A stretch of DNA of 64,000 bases from Flavobacterium branchiarum (GTDB lineage: Bacteria > Bacteroidota > Bacteroidia > Flavobacteriales > Flavobacteriaceae): contig NZ_JAUFQQ010000005.1 of NCBI RefSeq assembly GCF_030409845.1, positions 2,046,001-2,110,000 on the forward strand, read 5' to 3'. The notes below the pieces were generated by a model. It was not told the DNA's origin. It worked only from the letters and a program-made list of their open reading frames with translations, and made no database searches. Positions 8,888 to 37,980 of the stretch are shown one piece after another; position 1 is the stretch's first letter, and each line of letters begins with the position of its first letter. The position numbers and the translations under genes were made by a program.

Positions 8888-10948
8888 ATGAAAAGACAAA
8901 TTAATAAGCATTTGTTGTTTGCTATTCCTGCAGTGTTAGGATTTTCAATGGGTCAAGCTCAAACTATGTCTTCTAAGACATCGGGTATTGATGTTTCTTT
9001 AATGGACAAAAGCGTTAAACCAAGCCAAGATTTTTTTCGTTATGTAAACGGAACTTGGGTAGATAAAACAGAAATTCCTAGCGATAGAAATGCATGGGGA
9101 AGTTTTAATGAACTACGTCAGAAGACTGATAATGATGCTTTGGCAATTTTAAAGGAAGCTTCAAAAAGTAAAAAATATAATTCAACTACAGAGCAAGGAA
9201 AAGCAATTGCGCTTTTTAATACAATTCTAGATACTATTGGAAGAAACAAGCAGGGAATTAAACCACTAAAACCTTATTTGACTAAAATTGACGCTATCAA
9301 AAACGTAGCAGATTTACAGAATTTTTTAATAGAAATGGAACCTTTAGGTGGGGCTGGTTTTTTCGGTATTTATGTTAGCGCCGATAAAAAGAACAGTAAT
9401 ATTAATACGCTTAGCTTAGGTGTTGGTAGATTAGGATTGTCTGATAAAGATTATTATGTATCTGAAGATAAGGATTCTAAGGAGAAGCGCGCAAAGTATG
9501 AACTTCATATTGCAAGAATGTTGCAGTTTATAGGCGAATCTCCTCAAAAAGCAAAAGAGAGCGCTGCACAAGTTCTAGCATTAGAAACAGCTATGTCGGC
9601 ACCAAGATTAGATCGTGTTGAACGTAGAGATGGAAGATTACAATACAACCCAACTGCAGTTACTGATCTTAAAAAGATGACACCAGCAATTCAGTGGGAT
9701 AAATATCTTGCAGGTATTGGATTGGCAAAAGCAGATACAATTATTGTAACACAACCTCGTTACATGAAAGCATTGCAAACAATCCTTACCGAAAATAAAG
9801 TTCCAGCTTGGAAAGAATATTTAAAATGGTGTGCTTTAAATAGAGCAACTTCGCAATTAACGACAGAAATAGAAGATGCTAGTTTTGATTTCTACGGAAA
9901 AACATTAACGGGAGCAATCAAACAGCGCCCAAGTGAAGAAAGAGCGCTTCAGGTGATAAACCAAGTTATTGGAGAGTCTTTGGGTAAATTGTATGTTGAA
10001 AAAATGTTTCCTGCTGAAGCAAAAGTAAAAGCGGAAAAAATGATCCAAAATATTGTTTTGGCTTTCCAAAACCGTATTAACAATTTGACATGGATGTCTG
10101 CCGAAACTAAAGTGAAAGCAGTTGAAAAACTTAATAAAATTGCCATAAAAATTGGTTATCCTGATAAATGGAAAGATTATAGTGCTTTAGTTATTAAAGA
10201 TGTACAAGAGGGTGGTAGCTATTTTGATAATAGTCTTAACCTAGCGAAATGGAGTTACAATGATAATATTTCTAAATACAAAAAGCCTGTTGATAAGACC
10301 GTATGGGGAATGTCGCCACAAACGGTAAATGCATACTATAGCCCATCTTATAATGAGATAGTTTTTCCAGCAGCTATCTTGCAACCTCCGTTCTATAATT
10401 ACCAAGCAGATGAAGCTGTAAATTACGGTGGAATTGGAGCTGTAATTGGACATGAAATTTCTCATGGATTTGATGATTCTGGAGCGCGTTACAACGCAGA
10501 TGGAAATCTTGTTGATTGGTGGACAGCAGACGACTTGAAACAATTTACAGCTTTAGGAACTGCATTGGCAAATCAATATAGCGCATTAGAGCCTTTGCCG
10601 GGAATTCATGTAGATGGTAAATTTACATTAGGAGAAAACATTGGTGACTTAGGTGGTATAAATGCTGCTTATGACGGATTACAATTATATTTAAAAGCAA
10701 ATGGAAGCCCTGGATTAATAGATGGATATACTCCTGAACAACGTTTCTTTATATCGTGGGCTACTGTTTGGAGAACCAAAAGCCGTGATGAAGCTATAAA
10801 AAGTCAAGTTAAAACAGATCCACACGCTCCAGGAATGTACCGTGCTTATGTACCGTTACAAAATGTAGATGCTTTTTACGAAGCTTTCTCAATTAAACCA
10901 GGTGATGGAATGTATATAGAACCATCTAAACGAGTTAAAATTTGGTAA
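8888..10948 (+). CDS. M13-family zinc metallopeptidase (neprilysin/PepO-like), copy 1
   Basis: A 686-residue secreted M13 endopeptidase. A signal peptide (about residues 1-25, ending SMGQAQ) is followed by the helical N-terminal M13 domain (DFFRYVNGTWVDKTEIPSDR) and the catalytic C-terminal domain. Zinc ligands are H522 and H526 in HEISH and E583 in GENIGDLGG. NAYYSPSYNEIVFPAAILQP is the family substrate-binding segment, and the protein ends in the usual W (RVKIW). The protein probably cleaves oligopeptides in the periplasm or outside the cell. A paralog follows in tandem. The start is chosen from the signal peptide and the promoter position. Confidence 0.95.
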   Translation: MKRQINKHLLFAIPAVLGFSMGQAQTMSSKTSGIDVSLMDKSVKPSQDFFRYVNGTWVDKTEIPSDRNAWGSFNELRQKTDNDALAILKEASKSKKYNSTTEQGKAIALFNTILDTIGRNKQGIKPLKPYLTKIDAIKNVADLQNFLIEMEPLGGAGFFGIYVSADKKNSNINTLSLGVGRLGLSDKDYYVSEDKDSKEKRAKYELHIARMLQFIGESPQKAKESAAQVLALETAMSAPRLDRVERRDGRLQYNPTAVTDLKKMTPAIQWDKYLAGIGLAKADTIIVTQPRYMKALQTILTENKVPAWKEYLKWCALNRATSQLTTEIEDASFDFYGKTLTGAIKQRPSEERALQVINQVIGESLGKLYVEKMFPAEAKVKAEKMIQNIVLAFQNRINNLTWMSAETKVKAVEKLNKIAIKIGYPDKWKDYSALVIKDVQEGGSYFDNSLNLAKWSYNDNISKYKKPVDKTVWGMSPQTVNAYYSPSYNEIVFPAAILQPPFYNYQADEAVNYGGIGAVIGHEISHGFDDSGARYNADGNLVDWWTADDLKQFTALGTALANQYSALEPLPGIHVDGKFTLGENIGDLGGINAAYDGLQLYLKANGSPGLIDGYTPEQRFFISWATVWRTKSRDEAIKSQVKTDPHAPGMYRAYVPLQNVDAFYEAFSIKPGDGMYIEPSKRVKIW

Positions 10949-27742: not shown

Positions 27743-27833
27743 GTTAATAGCCATTGATTTCTCGTAGTGTTCTTTGCTTTTGTTCAATCTTAAAGCGAGA
27801 TATGGCTTATCATGATATTTTTTAAATTTATCA
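27743..27833. repeat. 91-bp direct repeat, left copy
   Basis: This 91-bp segment (GTTAATAGCCATTGATTTCT ... TTTTTTAAATTTATCA) recurs without any mismatch I can see at 34956-35046. It contains a partial inverted repeat (TAGCCAT...TCTCG facing CGAGA.ATGGCTTA), so it could fold as an RNA or be a protein-binding site. It lies about 100 bp upstream of the HTH gene that opens the leader-peptide island. The rest of this 344-bp intergenic region is AT-rich with no other recognisable element. Confidence 0.95.
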
Positions 27834-27935
27834 CAATCGGTTTATTGTAAAATTTTATAGAATTTAGTTTTAATATAAAAATCGGAATATTATTTTAAAA
27901 ATTTCAATGTCTATTATCTTTATTTAATACTAGTT

Positions 27936-28253
27936 ATGAATTTTATTAAACATATAGAGCGTATCAAAAAAATGCATCGATTAATTACTACTGAAAAAAC
28001 AGGAACTCCAAGTGCTTTTGCGAGAAAATTAGGCTTGAGCAGAAGTCAGCTGTATAATGAATTAGATTTGATTAAAGATTTTGATGCTCCTATTAAATAC
28101 TGCAAAAAGAGGGAGAGTTATTATTATGAAACCTTTTTTGATATAGAATTAAATTACTCACTTAAGATAATTATAGTGGAGGAGACAAAGAAAATTTTTG
28201 GTGGATCACATTTCGATCCAATTTTATTGGACGCAACTATGATAATTTTGTAA
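27936..28253 (+). CDS. HTH regulator of the peptide-export island
   Basis: A 105-residue protein. A helix-turn-helix sits at about residues 12-50 (MHRLITTEKTGTPSAFARKL, then GLSRSQLYNELDLIKDFDAP), and a wing-like segment follows (IKYCKKRESYYYE). The C-terminal 35 residues end DPILLDATMIIL. It resembles the HTH part of DeoR/WYL-like regulators but lacks any effector domain. It is the first gene after the left 91-bp repeat and lies 66 bp upstream of a double-glycine peptide gene. Two partial copies of its 3' end occur downstream, each placed like a unit start. A regulatory role in the island is inference. Confidence 0.7.
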   Translation: MNFIKHIERIKKMHRLITTEKTGTPSAFARKLGLSRSQLYNELDLIKDFDAPIKYCKKRESYYYETFFDIELNYSLKIIIVEETKKIFGGSHFDPILLDATMIIL

Positions 28254-28319
28254 TAACAAAAAAGTTCTCGAGACAAAGATTTTGTTAGAATTTATTAATA
28301 TTTTAAAAATTTAGAGATT

Positions 28320-28508
28320 ATGAATTTAGAAAATTTAAATTTAGTAGAGTTAAATGCTCAAGAAGTACAAGAAGTTGAAGGAGGTAATATTTTTCGAGCT
28401 GTACAATACTTACTTGAGTTTGCATCAATTTATGATGCAGTTAGTGATTTTAAAGAAGGATGGAATTCTGTTCCATCCACACAACGAGGAGCTCAAGGAA
28501 GCTGGTAA
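28320..28508 (+). CDS. Double-glycine leader peptide 1 (bacteriocin-like precursor)
   Basis: A 62-residue precursor. The leader (residues 1-22, with LNLVELNAQEVQEVEGG) shows the hydrophobic spacing and terminal Gly-Gly of substrates of C39-peptidase ABC exporters. Cleavage after GG would release a 40-residue product starting NIFRAVQYLLEFASIYDAVS and ending RGAQGSW. The product is amphipathic, contains no cysteine, and shares a WNSV motif with peptide 2. The leader is nearly identical to that of peptide 3. Activity as bacteriocin or signal is inferred from architecture and from the exporter downstream. Confidence 0.8.
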   Translation: MNLENLNLVELNAQEVQEVEGGNIFRAVQYLLEFASIYDAVSDFKEGWNSVPSTQRGAQGSW

Positions 28509-28535
28509 TTTAAAGTCAGAAACTAACAGAATGAA

Positions 28536-29153
28536 ATGATTTATAAATCGGAAGTTTTATCAAAAAAAAATATTGCATACCTATTTATATATTTAATTTT
28601 AGCCTTAGTATTTATATTAGGAATAGAATTAGTGAGGTATTTGCTAGATATTAAAGATCCTGATAGTAATAAGCTAAAAGATGCTTTTCTGTCTAATTTT
28701 ACTTTTGCTTTTTTTAGTGCTGTAATTTTAAGTCCAATAATAGAAGAAGTCGGTTTTAGGCTTTCATTAAAAAGAAATAAACATTATTGGTTAAGTATTG
28801 TTTTTTGTTTGGTGTTTCTCTTATCAACTAATTTTATGGTAACAAAAATTATTTGTTTACTATACATTGGGATTACAATTTTGCATCAATTTAATAATAA
28901 AACGAATCTAATTAAAGATATTGCTATTGTCTTGTCTGTACTCACATTTTTGTGCGTGCATTTTGATAATTACAACGAGAACGAATTAAGAGCTTTAGGT
29001 AGTTTAGATCTTTTAATGCTTTTTCTTCCTCAATTTGTTATAGGTTTGATAATAACTAAAATAAGGTTACAAACATGTTTTTTGAATTCGATTATCTTTC
29101 ATTCATTCTATAATTTTTTTATTTTGTCATTAGCATTATTATTTAATTATTAA
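28536..29153 (+). CDS. CPBP-family intramembrane metalloprotease, copy 1
   Basis: A 205-residue membrane protein with about six hydrophobic segments. CPBP/Abi motifs are present: EExxxR in SPIIEEVGFRLSLKRN (E near residue 70), a helix with conserved His (LCVHFDNY) and the third motif FHSFYNFF. Family members are CAAX-like membrane proteases. In Gram-positive bacteriocin loci they often serve as immunity proteins. Here the gene lies between two double-glycine peptide genes, 27 bp after the first, so immunity or peptide maturation is a reasonable inference. A second CPBP gene lies at the far end of the island. Confidence 0.82.
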   Translation: MIYKSEVLSKKNIAYLFIYLILALVFILGIELVRYLLDIKDPDSNKLKDAFLSNFTFAFFSAVILSPIIEEVGFRLSLKRNKHYWLSIVFCLVFLLSTNFMVTKIICLLYIGITILHQFNNKTNLIKDIAIVLSVLTFLCVHFDNYNENELRALGSLDLLMLFLPQFVIGLIITKIRLQTCFLNSIIFHSFYNFFILSLALLFNY

Positions 29154-29163
29154 AATCATTATT

Positions 29164-29337
29164 ATGAAAAAAATTGAAATAAATTTAGAAGAATTAAGTA
29201 ATTTAGAATTAGAAGAAATTACTGGGGGAGGCTTTTTTTATGACATGGGGGTTGCTGCGCACGAAGCGTGGAATTCTGTAAACGATTTCTTTAATTCACA
29301 TCCTAATTTGAAATCACACAGTCGTCAAGGAATTTAA
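29164..29337 (+). CDS. Double-glycine leader peptide 2
   Basis: A 57-residue precursor starting 10 bp after the CPBP gene. The leader is MKKIEINLEELSNLELEEIT followed by GG (cleavage after residue 22). The mature product of about 35 residues begins GFFYDMGVAAHEAWNSVNDF and ends KSHSRQGI. Like peptide 1 it contains WNSV and ends with a basic, Gln/Gly-containing tail, so the two may be a related or two-component pair. The gene is followed by a hairpin terminator, which would define a transcript running from peptide 1 or the HTH gene to here. Confidence 0.8.
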   Translation: MKKIEINLEELSNLELEEITGGGFFYDMGVAAHEAWNSVNDFFNSHPNLKSHSRQGI

Positions 29338-29348
29338 TTTTTAGAGTT

Positions 29349-29381
29349 AAGCTGATTGTTACAAGTAACAATCAGCTTTCT
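29349..29381 (+). terminator. Hairpin after leader peptide 2
   Basis: A 13-bp perfect stem (AAGCTGATTGTTA pairing with TAACAATCAGCTT, loop CAAG) is followed by TCTT. Confidence 0.75.
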
Positions 29382-29394
29382 TAAAAAGGAAAGA

Positions 29395-29484
29395 ATGAAA
29401 AACAAAAGTGTTTATTCTACACTAATTAAGTTTATTAGTTATTTAATTATTGCCATTTTAAATAGCTATTTATTTGTAGTTTAA
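29395..29484 (+). CDS. Short membrane peptide (29 aa)
   Basis: A 29-residue frame, MKNKSVYSTLIKFISYLIIA then ILNSYLFVV, forms a single hydrophobic helix with a basic N-terminus. It begins right after a terminator hairpin. Similar single-helix frames follow other leader-peptide genes in this island (37, 49 and 25 residues), which argues against chance. It could be an immunity-type or toxin-like peptide; the function is unknown, and expression is not supported by a clear promoter. Confidence 0.35.
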   Translation: MKNKSVYSTLIKFISYLIIAILNSYLFVV

Positions 29485-29708
29485 ATTTTCCTATATATAT
29501 CAATAAAAAGCACCCAAGTATCTTGTTTCTCTTAGGGTAATACATCTAAATAATCTTGGCTAGTCTATGTTACTAACTTGTTTAAAAAATCCTTCTAGCT
29601 ATAATACATACAATCCAGTTCCCTTAATTGACATATAATTTTTTTTGCAATTACTATTGTATTACAATTCCTGAAAATAGTATCGATATTCCCGAATCCC
29701 GATAACAA

Positions 29709-29842
29709 TTATTATTATGAAACCTTTTTTGATATAGAATTAAATTACTCGCTTAAGATAATTATTGAGGGAGAGACAAAAGAAATTTTTGATGGATCAT
29801 ATTTTAATCCAATTTTATTGGACGCAACTATGATAGTTTTGT
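29709..29842 (+). pseudogene. 3' fragment of the HTH regulator gene (duplicate)
   Basis: This region encodes YYYETFFDIELNYSLKIIIE and ends NPILLDATMIVL-stop. It aligns with the C-terminal third of the 105-residue HTH protein and continues with the same downstream sequence (TAATAACAAAAAAGTTCTCG) into the next leader-peptide gene. The HTH-coding 5' part is missing. It is the left part of a duplication of roughly 270 bp that covers the HTH 3' end, the spacer and the leader of peptide 1. The stretch 29485-29708 before it shows nothing recognisable. Confidence 0.85.
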
Positions 29843-29911
29843 AATAACAAAAAAGTTCTCGAGACAAATATTTTGTAAAGACTTATTAATCAATGTTTTA
29901 AAATTAAAGTT

Positions 29912-30079
29912 ATGAATTTAGAAAATTTGAATTTAGTAGAGCTGAATGCTCAAGAAGTACAGGAATTTGAAGGAGGGAATTTTGCATATGCCTTAACTAT
30001 AATAGGAATGTGTGGCGCAGGTGCTGCATGGGTTTTCGATAAAGGAGAAGCTTATGGTAAATATTTAGCGGGAAAATAA
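29912..30079 (+). CDS. Double-glycine leader peptide 3
   Basis: A 55-residue precursor. The leader (1-22, LNLVELNAQEVQEFEGG) is nearly identical to that of peptide 1. Cleavage after GG gives a 33-residue, hydrophobic, glycine-rich product (NFAYALTIIGMCGAGAAWVF then DKGEAYGKYLAGK), with one Cys and small-residue spacing typical of pore-forming class II bacteriocins. It is followed 17 bp later by peptide 4, so the two may form a two-peptide system. Confidence 0.82.
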   Translation: MNLENLNLVELNAQEVQEFEGGNFAYALTIIGMCGAGAAWVFDKGEAYGKYLAGK

Positions 30080-30096
30080 TCATTAATTTTATTATT

Positions 30097-30231
30097 ATGA
30101 AAACAATCGAATTAAAAGAGTTGAGTCAAAAGGAATTAATTGAAATTGAGGGAGGTTTTGGACCAATGTATTATGCCATTGTTGGTATATGGTCTTTAGG
30201 TGTTAGCTATGGCTATCTAACTAATATATAA
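30097..30231 (+). CDS. Double-glycine leader peptide 4
   Basis: A 44-residue precursor. The leader MKTIELKELSQKELIEIEGG (20 residues) ends in Gly-Gly, and the predicted product is 24 residues (FGPMYYAIVGIWSLGVSYGY then LTNI), hydrophobic and glycine-containing with no charge. It lies 17 bp after peptide 3 and 6 bp before a short membrane peptide. Very short, but the leader fits the same pattern as its neighbours. Confidence 0.72.
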   Translation: MKTIELKELSQKELIEIEGGFGPMYYAIVGIWSLGVSYGYLTNI

Positions 30232-30237
30232 TGCCAA

Positions 30238-30351
30238 ATGGAAACTAAAAAAAAATATTGCATCCTATTATATGCATTAGTAATTTTCATATTGTTTAGT
30301 ATTTATATCTTTGAAAAAGGGGTGTTTTTTGGTAAAGCTTTGGCACGTTAG
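30238..30351 (+). CDS. Short membrane peptide (37 aa)
   Basis: A 37-residue frame: a basic N-terminus (METKKKYC), one hydrophobic helix (ILLYALVIFILFSIYIF) and a basic tail (GKALAR). The gene starts 6 bp after leader peptide 4, and a T-rich terminator-like hairpin follows. Its position after peptides 3 and 4 is that of a bacteriocin immunity gene; this is inference from position only. Confidence 0.5.
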   Translation: METKKKYCILLYALVIFILFSIYIFEKGVFFGKALAR

Positions 30352-30359
30352 AATAAAAA

Positions 30360-30399
30360 AGAGTGTGTCTCTAAATGATGAAACACACTTTTTTTAACA
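30360..30399 (+). terminator. Terminator after peptides 3 and 4
   Basis: AGTGTGT pairs with ACACACT across a ~14-nt loop and is followed by seven Ts. Confidence 0.6.
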
Positions 30400-30446
30400 T
30401 AGAATTAAAATAAAAAATATGAGATTTAGCAGGTATTTTAAAAGTT

Positions 30447-30587
30447 TGGATAAAAGATTTTGGAGGATGAGCTTAAGTTTAAAACTCAAGAAATAGAAGG
30501 TTTTCTTTACCGTTATTGCTCCTTGCGGCTTGTCTAGTGCTTAGCGGTTGTGGTTGTGCAGCTGCAAAAGATAGAAGACCACGCTAA
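30447..30587 (+). pseudogene. Decayed, frameshifted double-glycine peptide gene
   Basis: One frame reads ILEDELKFKTQEIEG without a start codon and resembles a leader ending just before Gly-Gly. In a shifted frame right after, LPLLLLAACLVLSGCGCAAA then KDRRPR-stop reads like a complete hydrophobic core with two Cys. A frameshift at the GG position and loss of the start explain both halves. An ATG at 30420 is in a third frame. No intact gene can be reconstructed without two changes. Confidence 0.45.
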
Positions 30588-30594
30588 GAAGTCT

Positions 30595-30626
30595 AAATTT
30601 TACCCCGAGAAATTGGGGTAAAATTT
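30595..30626 (+). terminator. Strong hairpin upstream of the 189-aa membrane protein
   Basis: A 12-bp perfect stem (AAATTTTACCCC pairing with GGGGTAAAATTT) with an 8-nt loop. It ends 25 bp before the next gene. It could terminate the decayed unit or act as an RNA element in the 5' region of the next gene. Confidence 0.55.
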
Positions 30627-30651
30627 AATTCAATAAAAATTATTAATCATT

Positions 30652-31221
30652 TTGAAAAACAGATATAGTATTATTAGTAAAAGTGTGTTGTTACTTTTTG
30701 TTAGAATTATGGACTTATATACAACAGATTTAGCTGTCACCAATTTTAAGGAGCAAGAGCAAAATTTAATAGTTAAAATTTTCGATTTAAATCAGGATAT
30801 GTTTTTTATGATAGAAATAGTATTGGCAATTATTCTTATCCTTGTTTATTTGTTTTCAATTGCAAACGAGGACAAATTCATAATTAAATCCCGAAATCTT
30901 AACGATTACATCAAGTGTTTTTTATTTAACAAAATAAATTTGCGGTTTAATGATTATTTCCATCCGTTACTTTTGAGGAATTGTATTGTTTTATATGGTT
31001 CAATTATTCCTGTTTTTGTTATTTCTACTAGTTTGCTGTTTTGTCTTAATAATTTTTGGGTGTATTTAAATATAAATAATAATATCGCTTTTGAATATTA
31101 TGTTTTATTGGATGATTTTTATTTTTTTGATGTGATTATATTTATTGTTCCTCCAACGTTGTTATTGTTTCTCCTGTTTAAAAAGTTAAAGATGAAATAT
31201 TTAAGTTATAATGACTTGTAG
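30652..31221 (+). CDS. Island membrane protein of unknown family, copy 1 (189 aa)
   Basis: A 189-residue protein with four hydrophobic segments (about 10-25, 52-68, 108-127 and 155-177). It aligns over its length with the 189-residue protein encoded near 35.3 kb: both have RxxDLxTTxLAxxNFxxQEQN near the N-terminus and VIxTSxLFxLNNxWVYL in the middle. The D-x-x-T-T and E-x-N pattern in the first helices recalls DUF5658 proteins, but that link is weak. The start is probably the TTG giving MKNRYSIISK, which matches the length of the paralog. An immunity or accessory role for exported peptides is a guess from context. Confidence 0.6.
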   Translation: MKNRYSIISKSVLLLFVRIMDLYTTDLAVTNFKEQEQNLIVKIFDLNQDMFFMIEIVLAIILILVYLFSIANEDKFIIKSRNLNDYIKCFLFNKINLRFNDYFHPLLLRNCIVLYGSIIPVFVISTSLLFCLNNFWVYLNINNNIAFEYYVLLDDFYFFDVIIFIVPPTLLLFLLFKKLKMKYLSYNDL

Positions 31222-31622
31222 TCTCTTAAAATAGAATCTGTCAGATTTTGAAAAACAACTTAAATTGGTAGTACTGTATTTATCTTATACAACAATGATG
31301 CTTATTTAATATGTCAATGTTATTGTCAAAAGAATATTATGTTGCTTGTAATGTGTTGTTTATTGTGAAATTTCGTTATTTGATAAACACGAAGCCTATG
31401 TGTTTTTTTATAATATTAAAATATGAATATGCAGAAGTAGTTGAATGTTTATTACAACCCTATTTTACTTGAAAAAAAAATATTTAAGAACCGATGATTT
31501 ATTTTAAAACAGTATAAAATTATCCATTTTTTATAACGCCTATTCGTGTTCTATAAATTGTGTGATATAGCTGGCTAAAGAGAAAACTTTTCTTTTGAAA
31601 AAAATCAATTAAATTTTTGCAC
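31222..31622. other. Non-coding AT-rich stretch before the exporter genes
   Basis: About 400 bp with no frame longer than a few dozen codons on the plus strand and no repeat seen elsewhere in the window. Runs of A and T dominate. The exporter promoter must lie here, but I cannot point to a convincing -33/-7 pair; the best candidate -7 (TAAATTTTTG) has two extra bases and is too close to the ATG. Confidence 0.5.
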
Positions 31623-32765
31623 ATGAACTTCAGTTCAGATCCAATAAATACCCTTGAAAATCTCATTGCAAGAAACAAAACCAAAAGTATATCCATATAC
31701 TTAATACTCGTTTTGGCAATTATTGTTTTTTTAGTTTTGCTACCCATTATAAAAGTTGATATTAGCAGTCAGAGTCGTGGTATCATACGTAGTAAAACCG
31801 ATAATGTACCTGTTGCAACAATTGTAAGTGGTCGGGTTACTTGGTTGGCTTTAAAAAATAATACTGTTGTACAAAAAGGTGACACACTTATTAAAATATC
31901 CAAGCAAAAACTGGAAAGTGATAAAAAAACGCAGGATACCTTATCCAGCTCCGTTTTGGTACTACTTAAAGATATCACTTATCTATTGCAAAACAAATCC
32001 TCTCATATACTAACATCTACTGCTCGAGAAGATCTATTTAAATTTCAAGCACGCAAAAATGAGTTACAAAGTAAAGTCTCACAAGCGGAAATTAATCATA
32101 CTCGAAACATAAACTTGTATGATAAAGATATTATTGCAAAAGGCGAATATGAAAAATACGAATATGAATTGCGTTTTGCCAATCAAGCATTACAAAGTTA
32201 CATAACCCAACAAAAAGCAACTTGGGAAAATCAAAAAAGAGATTTAGAAGAACGATTAAAAAACTTGAATGGCACAGTTGATAAAATAAATATAGAGTCA
32301 ACTAATTATTTTGTTTTAGCTCCTATTTCAGGTACTGTCGAAAATTTTTCTGGTATTCAGGTAGGTTCTTATATTAATGCTTCTCAGTCCATCGCATCAA
32401 TCTCGGCAATTGATTTTCTTATTGTAGAGAATAACGTTTCACCAAATGACATCGGACTTATACAAAAAAATCAAAAAGTAAAATTTCAATTAGACGCCTT
32501 TAATTACAATCAGTGGGGATTATTAGAAGGAAAAGTAATTGATATCGATCGAAATATAACAATGCAAGGCGAGCAAGCCTTTTTTAAAGTACGTTGCGCA
32601 TTGAACTCGACAGCTATGCAATTACAATCTGGTTATAAAACCAATGTTTCGAAAGGAATGACATTAACAACAAGGTATATCATTACACGCCGTAGTCTAT
32701 TCGATTTACTATTTGATAAAATCGATGATTGGCTTAATCCAAAACAATTAGAAAATAGTAATTAA
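31623..32765 (+). CDS. HlyD-family secretion adaptor
   Basis: A 380-residue membrane fusion protein. A short cytosolic N-terminus (MNFSSDPINTLENLIARNKT) leads to one TM helix (about 23-44). A lipoyl/barrel-sandwich half-motif follows (VSGRVTWLALKNNTVVQKGD), then a coiled-coil hairpin (about 135-225) and the second lipoyl half with beta-barrel (FVLAPISGTVENFSGIQVGS). It bridges the inner-membrane ABC exporter to an outer-membrane channel. The exporter gene starts 1 bp after its stop, so the two are co-translated. The ATG is preferred over a TTG two codons upstream. Confidence 0.92.
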   Translation: MNFSSDPINTLENLIARNKTKSISIYLILVLAIIVFLVLLPIIKVDISSQSRGIIRSKTDNVPVATIVSGRVTWLALKNNTVVQKGDTLIKISKQKLESDKKTQDTLSSSVLVLLKDITYLLQNKSSHILTSTAREDLFKFQARKNELQSKVSQAEINHTRNINLYDKDIIAKGEYEKYEYELRFANQALQSYITQQKATWENQKRDLEERLKNLNGTVDKINIESTNYFVLAPISGTVENFSGIQVGSYINASQSIASISAIDFLIVENNVSPNDIGLIQKNQKVKFQLDAFNYNQWGLLEGKVIDIDRNITMQGEQAFFKVRCALNSTAMQLQSGYKTNVSKGMTLTTRYIITRRSLFDLLFDKIDDWLNPKQLENSN

Positions 32766-32766
32766 T

Positions 32767-34917
32767 ATGTCTTCAATTAAAATAAAGCAACATGATATTA
32801 AAGATTGTGGTGCGGCTTGTTTGGCTTCTATAGGAAATCATTTCAAAGTCAATCTTCCTATAGCCAGAATTCGTCAGTATGCAAATACCGATAAAAGAGG
32901 TACAAATGTATTAGGTATTATTGAAGCTGCTGAAAAAATGGGTTTTACTGCCAAAGGAGTTAAAGGCGGTATGGATTCTTTAGACAAAATACCACTTCCT
33001 ACTATTGCTCATGTAATTACAAAAGAACAATTGCATCATTATGTAGTTATTTATAAAGTTGAAAAGTTAAAAATAACTGTTATGGATCCTGGCTTAGGAA
33101 AAATGGAAAGTTATACTTTAGAAGACTTTAAAGAAACATGGTCGGGAGTATTAATTCTTTTTGCTCCTAATGACGATTTCAAAACGTACAATGAAAAGAC
33201 TTCTCCTATAATACGTTTTTGGCAATTAATACAGCCACACAAAACGATTTTAATACAAGCATTAGTTGGTGCAATTTTATTTACAGTTTTAGGATTAGCA
33301 ATGTCTATTTACATTCAAAAAATAACTGATTATGTTTTAGTGGATGGTAATAGAAATTTACTCAATTTATTAAGTATCTCTATGATTGCAATAATAGTAT
33401 TGCAAGCCTACATTGGTTCGAAGAAAAGTGTCTTTGTAATGAAAACAGGGCAATTAATAGATGCTAAATTAATACTTGGATATTATAAACATTTGTTTCA
33501 TCTGCCACAGCGCTTTTTTGATACTATGCAAATTGGCGAAATTACATCAAGAATAAATGATGCTGTGAAAATCCGGTCGTTTATAAATGATGTTGCTATC
33601 GAAATGATTGTAAATATTTTTATAGTAATTTTTTCATTTGCACTAATGTTCACGTATTACTGGAAATTGGCTCTAGTTATTTTACTTGTAATTCCTTTTT
33701 ATGTAGCAATCTATTTTGTTCTAAACAAATTCAATAAAAAAGTAGAACGGAATATTATGGAAAATGGTGCTGAACTACAAACGCAATTAGTTGAGAGTGT
33801 TACCCATATAAGAACCGTTAAAGAATTTGGTATTGAAGAATTTTCAAATTTAAAAACGGAGAACAAATTTGTAAAATTACTGTTCACAACATATAAATCA
33901 GGATTGAATAGCATTTTTGCAAATACTTCTACCCAATTTTTGGCTTCTATATTTACTGTTATTCTTATGTGGATTGGCTCAGGCTATGTCATAGATAGAG
34001 CTATTACTCCAGGGGAGTTATTCTCGTTTTATGCTTTAATTGGATATTTTACATCGCCTGTTGCTTCTTTGATAGGCATGAACAAAACGGCTCAAAATGC
34101 TATGATTGTAGCCGATAGACTTTTTGAGATAATGGATTTAGAACGTGAAGAAACAGAAAATAAAATTGAGTTACAAAGAGAAAATATAGGAGATGTAAAA
34201 TTCGAAAATGTTTCTTTTCGCTATGGGTCTCGAGTTGAAGTTTTTAAAAACTTTAATGCTGTATTCAAACAAAATGAAACAACTGCCATTGTTGGTGAAA
34301 GTGGAAGTGGCAAAACTACATTAATCTCCTTGCTCCAAAATTTGTATCCTATAAAAGAAGGGAAAATTTATATTGGAGAATATGACACACAATTTATCCA
34401 TTATCAAAGTTTGAGAAATTATGTAGGTGTAATTCCACAACAGCTTAATTTGTTTTCTGGAAATATCATAGAAAACATTGCCCTAGGAGATTCTTTTCCA
34501 AACATTCAGCGTGTTATAGATTTAGCGAAACAACTAGGAATAACAGAATTTGTAGAAAAATTACCCAATGGTTTTGAAACTCAAATAGGTGAAAATGGGA
34601 CTATGCTTTCCGGCGGACAGAAACAGCGCATTGCCATTGCAAGAGCTTTATATAAAAATCCAGAAATTTTATTAATGGATGAAGCAACGTCATCATTAGA
34701 TACTAACTCTGAAAAAATTGTACAACATGTTATTAATGATTTTAAATCACAAGGAAAAATAGTTATTGTGATTGCTCATAGATTAAGTACGATTGCTAAT
34801 GCCAATACAATTCTAGTTATGAAAGACGGAATTATTGTTGAATCAGGAAATCACAACAGCTTATTAGAATCAAAAGGCGAGTATTATAATCTATGGAACA
34901 AGCAAAATCTATTCTAA
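32767..34917 (+). CDS. C39-peptidase ABC exporter (peptide maturation and export)
   Basis: A 716-residue PCAT-type exporter. An N-terminal C39 cysteine peptidase (1-~135) has C14 in KDCGAACLA, H91 in HHYVV and D107 in MDPG. A six-helix ABC membrane domain follows (about 155-440), and the nucleotide-binding domain is C-terminal: Walker A GESGSGKT near 510, signature LSGGQKQR, Walker B ILLMDEATS, H-loop IAHRLS. The peptidase cleaves leaders after Gly-Gly while the transporter exports the product, exactly matching the four leader peptides upstream. The catalytic Cys is intact, so this is a real peptidase and not a CLD-type pseudo-peptidase. Confidence 0.97.
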   Translation: MSSIKIKQHDIKDCGAACLASIGNHFKVNLPIARIRQYANTDKRGTNVLGIIEAAEKMGFTAKGVKGGMDSLDKIPLPTIAHVITKEQLHHYVVIYKVEKLKITVMDPGLGKMESYTLEDFKETWSGVLILFAPNDDFKTYNEKTSPIIRFWQLIQPHKTILIQALVGAILFTVLGLAMSIYIQKITDYVLVDGNRNLLNLLSISMIAIIVLQAYIGSKKSVFVMKTGQLIDAKLILGYYKHLFHLPQRFFDTMQIGEITSRINDAVKIRSFINDVAIEMIVNIFIVIFSFALMFTYYWKLALVILLVIPFYVAIYFVLNKFNKKVERNIMENGAELQTQLVESVTHIRTVKEFGIEEFSNLKTENKFVKLLFTTYKSGLNSIFANTSTQFLASIFTVILMWIGSGYVIDRAITPGELFSFYALIGYFTSPVASLIGMNKTAQNAMIVADRLFEIMDLEREETENKIELQRENIGDVKFENVSFRYGSRVEVFKNFNAVFKQNETTAIVGESGSGKTTLISLLQNLYPIKEGKIYIGEYDTQFIHYQSLRNYVGVIPQQLNLFSGNIIENIALGDSFPNIQRVIDLAKQLGITEFVEKLPNGFETQIGENGTMLSGGQKQRIAIARALYKNPEILLMDEATSSLDTNSEKIVQHVINDFKSQGKIVIVIAHRLSTIANANTILVMKDGIIVESGNHNSLLESKGEYYNLWNKQNLF

Positions 34918-34955
34918 ACTCTATTACAATTTAGTTGTGGTTTTTTTATCTATTT

Positions 34956-35046
34956 GTTAATAGCCATTGATTTCTCGTAGTGTTCTTTGCTTTTGTTCAA
35001 TCTTAAAGCGAGATATGGCTTATCATGATATTTTTTAAATTTATCA
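34956..35046. repeat. 91-bp direct repeat, right copy
   Basis: Identical over 91 bp to 27743-27833, in the same orientation. It lies right after the exporter gene and just upstream of a decayed leader-peptide gene. In the left copy the same element precedes the HTH-peptide unit, so it appears to be the upstream part of a duplicated unit. Confidence 0.95.
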
Positions 35047-35070
35047 GTTAGCATTTTTAAAATTATAATT

Positions 35071-35253
35071 CTGAATTTTCCAAAGTCAAATTTACTAGAG
35101 CTTAACGCTTAAGAAGTAATAGAGATTAAGGGTGAATATGTTAGAACATGTTTCCTTTTTGAAGGTTGTGCAACTTCTAAATCAACAATAATTCAGCACA
35201 AAACGGAAATAGATATTAATTTTAAGGGACTTGTTAGTATCCTTATGTTTTAA
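35071..35253 (+). pseudogene. Decayed double-glycine leader peptide gene
   Basis: Read from a CTG in place of the ATG, the frame gives LNFPKSNLLELNA-stop-EVIEIKGEYV and continues for 61 codons. NLLELNA/EVIEIKG aligns with LVELNAQEVQEVEGG of peptides 1 and 3: Gln has become a TAA stop and GG has become GE. With no start, an internal stop and no Gly-Gly it cannot yield an exportable peptide. It follows the right 91-bp repeat. Confidence 0.7.
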
Positions 35254-35262
35254 AGTTTTTAA

Positions 35263-35832
35263 ATGAATGTAAAAGCGATAGTAGTAAGTGTGATAATCTT
35301 TGTTTTTAGGATGATTGACTTGGTCACAACAAAATTAGCTTTAAAGAATTTTGAAATGCAAGAACAAAATATAATTGTAAAAATGACTTCTATGAGTATG
35401 GTAACATTTTTTATTTTAGAAACTGTTTTAGCATTTTTTCTTGCGTTACTTTATTTGTATTATTCCCAAAATAGGTCTTTATTTTCTATAAACACATCTA
35501 GTCTGAAAGAGTATATCAGTTTGTATTTTTTTGATAAATCTAAATCTAAAATGAAAGATTGGTTTATTAGTTTAAACTTAAGAAAAACACTTGTTTTGTT
35601 TGGGGCTATTGCTCCTGCTTTTGTAATAACGACAAGTACATTGTTTTCATTAAACAATTACTGGGTCTATCTATTTGATGAAGGAGATGAACTTGCGATT
35701 AAATATTATCGATTATTTAATCGTCTTTATTTGTTTGATTTTATAATTTCTGTTTTTCCGGTTCTTTTTATTCTTGTTTTACTGGTACGAAAAATACGTC
35801 TCGAATACTGGTTTAGCCAGAAGGCTACATGA
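35263..35832 (+). CDS. Island membrane protein of unknown family, copy 2 (189 aa)
   Basis: A 189-residue paralog of the protein at 30.65 kb, with the same four hydrophobic segments. Shared blocks are RMIDLVTTKLALKNFEMQEQ at the N-terminus and RKTLVLFGAIAPAFVITTST, then FSLNNYWVYL in the middle. The gene begins at an ATG 9 bp after the decayed leader-peptide frame. Both copies thus follow decayed or intact peptide genes, which fits immunity or accessory functions. No named family can be assigned with confidence. Confidence 0.65.
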   Translation: MNVKAIVVSVIIFVFRMIDLVTTKLALKNFEMQEQNIIVKMTSMSMVTFFILETVLAFFLALLYLYYSQNRSLFSINTSSLKEYISLYFFDKSKSKMKDWFISLNLRKTLVLFGAIAPAFVITTSTLFSLNNYWVYLFDEGDELAIKYYRLFNRLYLFDFIISVFPVLFILVLLVRKIRLEYWFSQKAT

Positions 35833-35981
35833 AATTGTAAAAGTCAGGATAAATCTAATTTAAGAAACGAAACCTATCAAATGGACTTGTTTTGTAATTA
35901 AAATAGTATATATTTACGGTTAATAGTTTCTATTGATGCTTGTTTGAAGGAAATCTTATAAATAATAAAACGCTACATAAA

Positions 35982-36158
35982 ATGAAAAAAATCCGAATCA
36001 TACTGTACATAATTACTATTGTCTATGGATTATCAATTGCATTTTTTCATATAGACTTTGTATACAAGAAACCTGTTCTTTACTTTTTAATAGGTGCTCT
36101 AATTGTTTTTGATTTAATCATTCCAAATCTTAAGAAAAAGTCGGAGCATGTAGAGTGA
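35982..36158 (+). CDS. Small two-helix membrane protein (58 aa)
   Basis: A 58-residue protein, MKKIRIILYIITIVYGLSIA then FFHIDFVYKKPVLYFLIGAL and IVFDLIIPNLKKKSEHVE. It has two hydrophobic helices joined by a short loop with a Lys-Lys turn, and a basic/acidic tail. The ATG is preferred over a TTG 42 nt upstream. It has no recognisable family. Size and topology resemble many bacteriocin immunity proteins, but this is only a resemblance. Confidence 0.5.
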   Translation: MKKIRIILYIITIVYGLSIAFFHIDFVYKKPVLYFLIGALIVFDLIIPNLKKKSEHVE

Positions 36159-36183
36159 TGAATCATAATTCATATTTGGATGA

Positions 36184-36231
36184 TATTATTTCTGTCCAAT
36201 TTTAGCGGGCGTAAGTATGATAAGTTTGTAA
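36184..36231 (+). pseudogene. Remnant of the HTH gene 3' end (third copy)
   Basis: YYFCPILAGVSMISL-stop aligns with the last residues of the HTH protein (HFDPILLDATMIIL-stop), and the bases after the stop (GAGAACAAAGTCCTTGAAAT) still resemble the spacer that precedes the leader-peptide genes. Only about 16 codons remain. No intact leader peptide follows. Confidence 0.6.
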
Positions 36232-36308
36232 TGAGAACAAAGTCCTTGAAATAATTACGTTGTTGAAATTTAAAAATTACCTTTTAAACTTAGAAATAGT
36301 ATAAAAAC

Positions 36309-36458
36309 ATGAAAAAGCAAAATAGTTTAGAGAAGATAGTCCTTGGGAACAGAGATAAAAAACTATTATTCATAGTGTTATTGTCAATAGCATATCTTTT
36401 TTTTGTTTATTTCCTTGGGAAAATATCAGGAGAATATCTATATCATTTTATTAATTAA
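36309..36458 (+). CDS. Short membrane peptide (49 aa)
   Basis: A 49-residue frame: a charged N-terminus (MKKQNSLEKIVLGNRDKK), one hydrophobic helix (LLFIVLLSIAYLFFVYFLG) and a short tail (KISGEYLYHFIN). It stands where a leader-peptide gene would be expected after the HTH remnant, but it lacks Gly-Gly. It could be an orphan immunity-type peptide. Its function is unknown. Confidence 0.4.
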   Translation: MKKQNSLEKIVLGNRDKKLLFIVLLSIAYLFFVYFLGKISGEYLYHFIN

Positions 36459-36509
36459 TGGCAATAGATAAATAGTTGATTATTTAGATATTAATTATAA
36501 AACCAACCA

Positions 36510-36896
36510 ATGCAAACTAATAAGGACTTAATTCTTAGGAATATTAAAAAACTTTCAGATTTTTTAATGGTATTGACAAAGCAAAAGCCATCAGAAATAG
36601 AAAACATTGTTGATTATATTAATGAATTCAACATAGAAACTTTTAATCTTTCTACAGAATCTCTTTTAGAGAAAGAAACGGCTGAAATATTAGAAATAGT
36701 AGGAAGCAATAATCTGGAAGATATTAAAGATTTTGCGGATTTATTGTTTTTTAATTTCTCACTTGAACATGATAAACCAAAATGGTTGCAACAATCTGAA
36801 AAAATAATTGAACTATATCGTGGTTATGAGAAGCTGTCTCTAGTGTACTCATTTGAAATTCAATCAAAAATCAATATTCTGAAGAAAGATTCTTAA
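36510..36896 (+). CDS. Hypothetical helical protein (128 aa)
   Basis: A 128-residue soluble, acidic, almost entirely helical protein (MQTNKDLILRNIKKLSDFLM at the start, then KQKPSEIENIVDYINEFNIE and AEILEIVGSNNLEDIKDFAD). It has no signal peptide, membrane segment or catalytic motif. I do not recognise the family. It lies inside the island among membrane peptides and may be an accessory or immunity gene. Coding bias looks normal for the region and the start ATG is clear. Confidence 0.6.
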   Translation: MQTNKDLILRNIKKLSDFLMVLTKQKPSEIENIVDYINEFNIETFNLSTESLLEKETAEILEIVGSNNLEDIKDFADLLFFNFSLEHDKPKWLQQSEKIIELYRGYEKLSLVYSFEIQSKINILKKDS

Positions 36897-37061
36897 TTTA
36901 TTGTCTTTTAAAAAGCCTTTAAGCGATTAAATAAAAGGATAATAAATTTTAGATAAGATCATATCATTCAATAGAAGTTAGTGGTTTTCGAAACTTGTAG
37001 TTCAGTAAATCTTAGATAGGGGAATTTACTTTTGAACAGCATATTAATTAAAAATATAATT

Positions 37062-37139
37062 ATGTTATACAAAATTACAATTGATGCGGTCTGTTTTCTT
37101 ATAACATTCGGAATTTATGCAATCTCAATTGCTTTATAA
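37062..37139 (+). CDS. Very short membrane peptide (25 aa), coupled to CPBP copy 2
   Basis: A 25-residue frame (MLYKITIDAVCFLITFGIYA then ISIAL) forms one hydrophobic helix. Its stop overlaps the start of the CPBP gene by one base (TAATG), a sign of translational coupling. It may be a real micropeptide or a leader frame for the CPBP gene. There is nothing else to support it. Confidence 0.35.
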   Translation: MLYKITIDAVCFLITFGIYAISIAL

Positions 37140-37855
37140 TGTCAATTTTGAAGAACTCTTTTTCAAATTACTTAGAGATTAACTTAGAGAATATAAGTTA
37201 CTTCATCTCTAAAATTAAGGAATTGTTATTAGTTTATCTTAAAATGATGCTTGTAATTCTTCTTATCGTATTTTTAATAAATTTTATAGATTTAATCATT
37301 TTTCAGCAATCTAATTTTTCTTTTTTTAAGAGTGTAAAAAAGCTACAAGATTTAAATTTCAATAAATTACCTGTCTTTTTTATTGTCTTTTTGGGGCCTT
37401 TTATGGAGGAAATAATTTTTAGATTGCCCCTAAGATTTAAAAAGAGAAACATTGTTTTATCATTGTCTTTTTTGTCTATTTATTTTGTCGGAGATAAAGT
37501 GGTAGATATTAATGTTTTCAGCTTGTATACTTGGATTAAAATAGTTCCAATTGTTTTTATAATTATCCTTTTCTATACATGTATTAAAGATTCATTACTA
37601 GAATCCATCAATAAGAAGTATTTTAAAACTATTTTTTACTTATTTACGATTTCTTTTGGGTTAATACACATTGTAAACTTTTACAAAATTGTGCCTGTGA
37701 ATTTAGTGTATCTTGCTCCTATATTTGTCTTACCACAAATTACTTTGTCTTTTTTTGTAGCATATTTTAGAATGAAAAACGGTTTTATTTGGGGCTTTTT
37801 TTTGCATTCTTTATACAATTTACCAATTACTCTATTTTATTTTTTAAAGACCTAG
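37139..37855 (+). CDS. CPBP-family intramembrane metalloprotease, copy 2
   Basis: A 238-residue membrane protein with about seven hydrophobic segments. CPBP motifs are present: EExxxR in GPFMEEIIFRLPLRFKKR (E near 86), the His in FGLIHIVNF, and FLHSLYNLP near the C-terminus. It is longer than copy 1 (205 residues) because of an N-terminal helix. It closes the island. As in copy 1, immunity or peptide processing is possible; the family also includes general membrane proteases. Confidence 0.82.
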   Translation: MSILKNSFSNYLEINLENISYFISKIKELLLVYLKMMLVILLIVFLINFIDLIIFQQSNFSFFKSVKKLQDLNFNKLPVFFIVFLGPFMEEIIFRLPLRFKKRNIVLSLSFLSIYFVGDKVVDINVFSLYTWIKIVPIVFIIILFYTCIKDSLLESINKKYFKTIFYLFTISFGLIHIVNFYKIVPVNLVYLAPIFVLPQITLSFFVAYFRMKNGFIWGFFLHSLYNLPITLFYFLKT

Positions 37856-37941
37856 AATTAAATAATGTCATTCGTTTTAAATGCATTGTTTAAACTAGTT
37901 TTGATTAAATTAAATATAGTTTATTTTTATAGAAACCAAAA

Positions 37942-37980
37942 TTATTCAGTTCAGACCCAATAAGCAAAATTGATTTCAGT
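37942..37980 (+). pseudogene. Trace of a second hlyD gene
   Basis: TTCAGTTCAGACCCAATAA matches the start of the intact HlyD gene (TTCAGTTCAGATCCAATAA) at 18 of 19 bases. In frame it reads LFSSDPISKIDFS, compared with MNFSSDPINTLEN. Nothing else of the gene is left before the next housekeeping gene. It suggests that a second exporter cassette once stood here. The match is short, so chance cannot be excluded. Confidence 0.45.

Follow-up and report, generated by a model that had tools for sequence, protein, structure and literature searches.

The two-peptide bacteriocins of class IIb include lactococcin G and the plantaricins. We compared with them, and with other systems built on double-glycine (GG) leader peptides, a gene island of Flavobacterium branchiarum that lies within a 64,000-nucleotide (nt) stretch of its genome (hereafter the window; C5:2046001-2110000 of a 5.0-Mb genome in 5 contigs). 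In our preferred reading, to which we give a probability of roughly 75%, the island encodes class IIb-like two-peptide bacteriocins in several cassettes, with cognate and orphan immunity genes. It shares with the class IIb peptides of the lactobin A/cerein 7B family (TIGR03949) tandem GG-leader peptides, GxxxG motifs, a neighbouring candidate immunity gene and a C39 exporter with its adaptor. It differs from them in its Gram-negative host, in a shared site with predicted swappable cassettes and orphan immunity genes, in the near-invariant leader of one precursor type (A), and in that most of its precursors fall below the TIGR03949 cut-off.

Other described systems come close in other respects, each compared here on the basis of part of the published account. 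In the case of gallocin A, models show a likeness between the immunity peptide GIP and the toxin peptides, and GIP was proposed to act by competition or interference (PMC10100652). The likeness to the island lies in a small immunity peptide resembling the two toxin peptides, immunity being predicted for the island and shown by experiment for gallocin A; the latter is Gram-positive, with disulfide hairpins and a model-based likeness, whereas the mimics of the island consist of one helix, are alike in sequence, fall into several families and are known from sequence alone (PMC10100652). CdzC/CdzD of Caulobacter (PMC5380434) also form a Gram-negative, two-peptide system with type I secretion, glycine zippers and a small membrane immunity protein, CdzI, but these peptides have 84-86 amino acids (aa) and form surface aggregates, and the excerpted text mentions no mimicry. 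The bacteroidetocins (PMC6671954) are likewise GG-leader peptides of Bacteroidota with a double-glycine peptidase ABC transporter, but in the passages drawn on they are single, four-cysteine, class IIa-like peptides with a thiol oxidoreductase, for which no immunity protein was found. Four-cysteine cores are absent from the window precursors, whose cores hold 0, 0, 1 and 0 cysteines. The mcb operon of Moraxella (PMC2761928) shares a Gram-negative GG-leader bacteriocin and a short cognate immunity gene directly downstream, but, in the part consulted, has four genes and one 101-aa peptide.

The original prediction called the island undescribed-looking. This stands for the type of locus, since in the open-licence literature, outside which most subscription papers lie, we found no description of it or of immunity mimics at sequence level. 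It does not stand for all the peptides: some homologous precursors already carry the database name 'class IIb bacteriocin, lactobin A/cerein 7B family', and the excerpted IIBacFinder commentary (PMC12648078) states that genome mining has predicted class II bacteriocins in Bacteroidota. In the part consulted of an F. columnare genome paper, the relevant terms occur in a reference only (PMC5524665); part of a review was also drawn on for comparison (PMC7616364). The kind of system is a known one, the two-peptide bacteriocin; this variant of it stands out by its host group, by cassettes accompanied by orphan immunity genes and by its mimic peptides.

Precursor pairs, exporter and linked membrane genes

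The four intact GG precursors originally predicted (62, 57, 55 and 44 aa) are all present (L numbers denote loci):

28320-28508, + strand: precursor A1, 62 aa, GG leader; homologs in L027, L098 and L172
29164-29337, + strand: precursor B1, 57 aa, second leader type; homolog in L081
29912-30079, + strand: precursor A2, 55 aa; homologs in L101 and L106
30097-30231, + strand: precursor B2, 44 aa; TIGR03949 at 25.2 bits against a cut-off of 21.5; homologs in L101 and L106

The claim that they share a leader was borne out for A1 and A2, which have a near-identical leader; B1 and B2 carry a second leader type. The precursors of pair 2 are adjacent, with homologous pairs in L101 and L106. Pair 1 is split by a CPBP gene, and this A-CPBP-B order recurs in L098 and in F. 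davisii (L172); we infer the same order for F. araucananum, provided that its two contig ends are neighbours.

Relatives were sampled in two sets. The first comprised 55 stretches, 53 of them with the adaptor, in which precursors were found with an iterated leader profile. The second comprised 41 further, adaptor-oriented loci (80 named loci minus 39 already in the first set), searched with the leader profile frozen and spanning Winogradskyella, Mesonia, Cellulophaga, Psychroflexus, Aquimarina and a few records labelled outside Flavobacteriaceae. Unit counts exclude leader matches with E >= 10 and cores of fewer than 12 residues. We recovered 77 precursor units in the first set, of which 41 were tandem pairs and 36 stood alone (the window's A1 and B1 entered as two singles, with the CPBP gene between them), and 60 in the second, of which 38 stood alone and 22 had at least two precursors. 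Gaps within pairs ranged from -26 to 67 nt and were 10-38 nt in 35/41. The leader-motif search and cluster comparison that had been proposed as a check thus recovered conserved leaders with variable cores: mean identity was 69% for A-type leaders (n=69) against 18% for cores, and 48% for B-type leaders (n=49) against 17% for cores. The precursor families open to comparison were under purifying selection, with ratios of non-synonymous to synonymous substitution rates (dN/dS) of 0.12-0.34 (sequence pairs below 55% identity excluded). One Aquimarina locus (L182) holds six identical GG precursor copies (SEETYNAGHAAGEAIHDAV...) at a regular spacing of 193 nt.

It is scarcely credible that short AT-rich open reading frames (ORFs) and hydrophobic helices produced false precursors and false similarity by chance. 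The sequences are indeed short and single alignments weak, those of the window included, but the frozen profile gave 96 plus-strand matches against 1 on the minus strand in the 41 second-set loci, and the dN/dS values and the rank and shuffle controls described below also speak against chance.

With one core taken from each of 64 core clusters, GxxxG (glycine at i+4) occurred 42 times against 19.5 (standard deviation 4.0) in shuffled cores, and 0/500 shuffles reached 42; glycine spacings i+2, i+3, i+5, i+6 and i+7 were not raised, and i+8 was raised slightly (30/500 shuffles). Tandem GG genes and GxxxG motifs are both found, as in class IIb. One-peptide bacteriocins or microcins standing in tandem by chance, without joint action, would accord with the 36/77 single units and with an ABC-type permease gene behind one single family in 7/7 loci, but we judge this unlikely in view of the GxxxG enrichment and of A and B families (P numbers) that travel together: P37 with P38 in 3/3, P46 with P47 in 3/3 and P29 with P50 in 3/4.

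The predicted C39 exporter with catalytic residues and its HlyD adaptor were both supported by Pfam matches:

31617-32765, + strand: HlyD-type adaptor (PF13437, PF16576)
32767-34917, + strand: C39 peptidase ABC exporter (PF03412, E 2.8e-36; PF00664; PF00005)

The catalytic Cys (DCGAAC), His (HHYVV) and Asp (DPG) can all be read in the exporter, which scored 514.7 bits against TIGR01193, slightly below the cut-off of 523.85. As in class IIb, a dedicated C39 exporter and an accessory protein are present. The adaptor was found in 50/398 Flavobacterium genomes, its own included (E 1e-80 or better), the nearest named ones (87%) being those of F. frigoritolerans, F. sp. ALJ2 and F. shii. As to the caveat that the exporter might be specific for substrates encoded elsewhere, a genome-wide search with A1 matched A1 and A2 alone; the exporter is the natural partner of the precursors, since no A-type precursors were found in the genome other than those adjoining it. 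At a distance of about 190 kb, the genome has two further C39-like places, next to Cys-rich GG peptides whose leader differs. A second GG-peptide array of the same genome (L028, C5:2260000-2278000) holds about nine Cys-rich peptides with the leader MLKxILNLxGxQ...NGG, and its C39-like genes look incomplete or broken.

Two CPBP proteins had been predicted, and both were recovered:

28536-29153, + strand: 205-aa CPBP protein, probable immunity gene of pair 1 (PF02517, 27.8 bits against a cut-off of 22.4)
37139-37855, + strand: second CPBP protein, orphan (BLAST CPBP cluster; EEIIFR and HS motifs by eye; no match in the Pfam scan)

The pairing of particular peptides with particular membrane proteins, also suggested as a check, was evident in relatives: units with homologous precursors had a downstream family in common in 70/77 comparisons, against 285/2524 for other units, and the maximum in 2000 permutations was 23. 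This supports the reading of a precursor pair and its downstream gene as predicted, swappable toxin-immunity cassettes. The downstream families include CPBP proteins, ABC permeases with ATPase, DUF3267 zincins, Pfam-less proteins and small membrane peptides. The 41 paired units were followed by a gene of at least 90 aa in 22 cases, by a mimic peptide (see below) in 10 (2 of these also with a large gene), by a non-mimic small membrane peptide in 8 and by the adaptor in 1; behind the 36 single units we found a large gene in 23, a non-mimic small membrane peptide in 10 and nothing within 450 nt in 3. In F. davisii (L172), an A-CPBP-B cassette of the window type is followed by an A-B pair with a 36-aa likely mimic, a pair that stands outside all counts.

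The peptides had been proposed to be either antagonistic or signalling. We favour antagonism over signalling because of the tandem pairs, the GxxxG motifs, the pair-specific membrane genes, the kept partners of decayed toxins (see below) and a scan of 16 window proteins that revealed neither a histidine kinase nor a response regulator. GG peptides acting as cues for relatives, with the membrane proteins as receptors or processing proteases, would be in line with the conserved promoter boxes ahead of units, with the weak leader matches to the ComC and BlpC models and with a TPR-AraC regulator beside 13/53 adaptor loci. However, the cores are too variable and paired for such cues, each core family has its separate membrane gene, and membrane genes are kept beside decayed precursors, which makes signalling quite improbable.

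Leaderless peptides resembling toxin cores

Small peptides of the window bear on a second possible form of immunity (C numbers denote peptide clusters):

30238-30351, + strand: 37-aa leaderless one-helix peptide, copy of the A2 tail, candidate mimic immunity (rank 0 of 72 non-homologous units)
36309-36458, + strand: membrane peptide of 49 aa, cluster C6, an orphan that mimics P20-type cores
29395-29484, + strand: hydrophobic peptide, 29 aa; no mimicry seen

Behind 10/41 paired units of the first set stands a leaderless peptide, one helix long, in which the C-terminal part of the cognate A or B core is copied. For the first peptide downstream, its own unit ranked above all 70-76 non-homologous units in 10/35 cases and in the top 5% in 12/35. 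The summed mimicry score was reached by 0/5000 permutations, and a score of 38 was attained by 0.05 of 35 residue-shuffled peptides on average against 10 real ones. More distant peptides ranked first in 1/22 cases and in the top 5% in 2/22; the large immunity candidates, taken as a control, did so in 0/39 and 1/39. The second set gave 5/12 and 8/12, or 6/14 and 9/14 with two precursor-like rows (L189, L163), the rows of both sets including mutual relatives, with fewer independent cases. Peptides resembling toxin peptides, as GIP does, were thus found at sequence level in both sets. By eye, six mimic families can be distinguished: C17/P37, C6/P20, C16/P73, WDxFER (L118, L146), L157/L161 and L175.

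In the window, the top three of 210 cores for the 37-aa peptide, whose tail reads KGxxxGxxLA, are the three members of the A2 family, and the best cores for the 49-aa peptide are those of L186 (47), L077 (44) and L091 (39), against a shuffled maximum of 42. The alignment ends at most 4 residues from both C-termini in 7/10 best first-set cases, C16 and L080 ending earlier. GxxxG is kept in 28/30 members of C6 and 7/7 of C17, and in 21/30 and 5/7 the residues ahead of the helix carry more positive charge than those behind it, a pattern that suggests N-in topology.

The mimics could instead be a third toxin component, leaderless toxins, relics of precursors without their leader, or binders of the same target, and not immunity factors. 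Likeness by itself is no proof of function, and a common origin of precursors and mimics is possible, as is a shared target. On the other side, a GG leader is absent from the first 35 residues of all C6, C16 and C17 members, C16 and C17 are under purifying selection (dN/dS 0.31-0.34), the mimics stand directly behind the pair, in the usual place of an immunity gene, and orphan copies are kept without a toxin. We consider these alternatives doubtful, with appreciable weight left to them. Two simpler explanations were disfavoured: mere decay of precursors, in the case of C16 and C17, by the purifying selection on them, and a general likeness of glycine-rich helices by the ranks among non-homologous units and the large-protein control. 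Orphan mimics with no matching toxin beside them were also seen at L025:11083-11241 (52 aa, like the WDxFER cores of L118/L146) and in L090 at oriented position 11686 (47 aa, like P22 cores).

Decayed precursors, promoters and the site of the island

The remaining genes of the island include two decayed precursors and candidate orphan immunity genes:

30465-30594, + strand: decayed precursor, frame-shifted remnant
30652-31221, + strand: first 189-aa membrane protein, read from a TTG start, candidate orphan immunity; stands behind intact precursors in L025
35069-35250, + strand: decayed precursor with an internal stop (D2 repeat)
35263-35832, + strand: second 189-aa membrane protein, candidate orphan immunity
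35982-36158, + strand: 58-aa membrane peptide (cluster C27), orphan; 5 loci, dN/dS 0.27, no mimicry seen
36510-36896, + strand: 128-aa protein (cluster C26), orphan; 5 loci, dN/dS 0.20

The two 189-aa paralogs of the original prediction are there, 42% identical, the first requiring a TTG start. Both stand behind decayed precursors whose pieces match L025 cores. In the first remnant, the core piece best matches an intact L025 core (58 against a shuffled mean of 29.2) and the leader piece matches weakly (p 0.057); in the second, the leader piece scored 62 against a shuffled mean of 25.8 and the core piece 42 against 26.0. In L025, the 189-aa gene lies behind two precursors that are intact and have LLxxC cores; its counterpart in L077 again has a broken precursor ahead of it. 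Because they follow decayed precursors, the 189-aa proteins are probably immunity genes that outlived their toxins. The region from 34.9 to 37.9 kb looks like an orphan-immunity array, and the leader profile found no intact GG precursor ahead of the genes at 35.2-37.9 kb, of whose families C26 and C27 are under purifying selection in relatives. By eye, a lipobox-like LxxC follows the GG site in the cores paired with 189-aa genes (L025:9596-9914, window 30465-30594, L077 oriented 8901-9200), and this LxxC-type precursor is broken in 2/3 of these places.

Relatives of the 189-aa proteins are rare: they were found in 1/99 other genomes and in one later-set locus (L077), and a search of 5.8 billion proteins that covers close relatives only returned 4, their own included. 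The second 189-aa protein was predicted, from 7 sequences, to be all-helical (mean predicted local distance difference test, pLDDT, 76.6; predicted template modelling score, pTM, 0.71; the other four models 65.3 to 45.0). This model had no fold match (best E 1.8), DUF5658 was the sole family hint, below its cut-off, and PADLOC gave no match for six proteins.

Beyond the original prediction, we recovered the two decayed precursors, a helix-turn-helix (HTH) gene (27936-28253) and a duplicated promoter segment (29709-29890), here listed with the repeats that frame part of the island:

27936-28253, + strand: 105-aa HTH protein, probable regulator (HTH_11 weakly: E 0.0075, 16.6 bits against a cut-off of 25)
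28217-28273, + strand: putative promoter/box region of pair 1 (TCCAAn5TTGGA at 28217, TAnnTTTG at 28243, TTCTCGAGA at 28265)
29709-29890, + strand: duplicate of the HTH gene 3' end and promoter, before pair 2 (182 nt, 91% identical to 28118-28299; TAnnTTTG at 29834, TTCTCGAGA at 29856)
27743-27833, no strand: direct repeat of 91 bp, copy 1, 100% identical to 34956-35046
34956-35046, no strand: direct repeat of 91 bp, copy 2, pairing with 27743-27833

HTH homologs with 66-70% identity stand ahead of precursors in three relatives. TAnnTTTG is a promoter motif of Bacteroidota, and we used it because sigma-70-like sites were at background (65 found against 68.0 expected). In the stretch examined, it occurred in 25/26 units directly behind an HTH gene, against 11% of random windows. 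In 22 units the HTH gene ends 11-14 nt after the motif, which therefore places the promoter inside the 3' end of the regulator gene. The TTCTCGAGA box was found at most 130 nt upstream of 50/77 units, against 147/20000 random windows, and was distributed as 35/43 at HTH loci, 13/21 at TPR-AraC loci and 2/13 elsewhere. The combined whole-promoter pattern gave 0 matches, and single elements were relied on. The HTH protein may bind these promoter boxes. A 73% copy of part of the promoter segment (36172-36277) precedes the orphan 49-aa peptide, with no GG precursor there.

The island is located between rseP and an FMN oxidoreductase gene, and its G+C content per 2-kb windows is 0.25-0.30 against 0.32-0.35 outside. 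The oxidoreductase gene was present in 9/10 adaptor-less relatives, and in 9/9 of these rseP lay about 200 nt from it; this neighbourhood is the empty site. Among the 53 adaptor-bearing stretches, rseP was found in 24 and both flanks in 22, and 13 had the large regulator, at another site (typed as TPR plus AraC in the one member typed). The perfect 91-bp repeat frames a 7.2-kb block from the HTH gene to the exporter, which could be lost or gained through it; the repeat was absent from the other loci compared and seen in its own genome only.

Proposed mechanism and its significance

Several observations weigh against our reading of the island as a two-peptide bacteriocin locus with mimic immunity. 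The TIGR03949 cut-off was passed by 1/4 window precursors (B2) and by 3/9 relatives tested. Single units make up 36/77 of the first set, some of them split pairs like A1/B1, and 38/60 of the second, and the linkage of downstream families is partly due to shared descent of whole loci. The score of the 37-aa peptide (42) does not exceed what shuffled peptides attain against their best core overall (mean 30.9, maximum 46), best-ranking mimicry was not seen in 25/35 first peptides, and among the C16 mimics GxxxG and the N-in charge pattern occur in 2/9 each.

The sequence itself shows the anatomy of the island, the pairing of precursors, the contrast between leaders and cores, purifying selection, the linkage of particular genes to particular pairs, mimicry and precursor decay. 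For regulation, secretion, pore formation, killing and immunity, we infer the following course. The small HTH protein and the conserved TAnnTTTG promoter would drive cassettes made of two GG precursors (A and B) and a cognate immunity gene, and the C39/HlyD exporter would cut the leaders after GG and secrete the cores. A and B would then probably pair through their GxxxG faces as membrane helices and probably permeabilise the inner membrane of related bacteria. Protection of the producer would come either from a pair-specific membrane protein (the CPBP protein for pair 1) or from a leaderless one-helix copy of the C-terminal part of A or B (the 37-aa peptide for pair 2), which would hold the partner peptide in an inactive complex. 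The 189-aa proteins and the genes at 35.2-37.9 kb would be immunity genes kept after loss of the toxin.

A broader proposal, which we advance tentatively as nearly as apt to hold as to fail, is that Gram-negative two-peptide bacteriocins generally rely on self-mimicry for immunity: a leaderless, membrane-anchored copy of one toxin helix would have evolved several times and would keep the partner peptide locked in an inactive dimer, and flavobacteria would gather such peptides in orphan arrays that record past toxins. Little is understood of how producers withstand their own two-peptide bacteriocins, and mimicry that can be read from the sequence points to residues worth testing; it also widens a hypothesis that came from models of one streptococcal toxin, gallocin A. 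The loci assembled here yield many candidate two-peptide bacteriocins of Gram-negative Bacteroidota that can be put to the test, their predicted toxins and immunity partners having been matched by comparison, and their orphan arrays might allow the resistance of strains to particular neighbours to be predicted.

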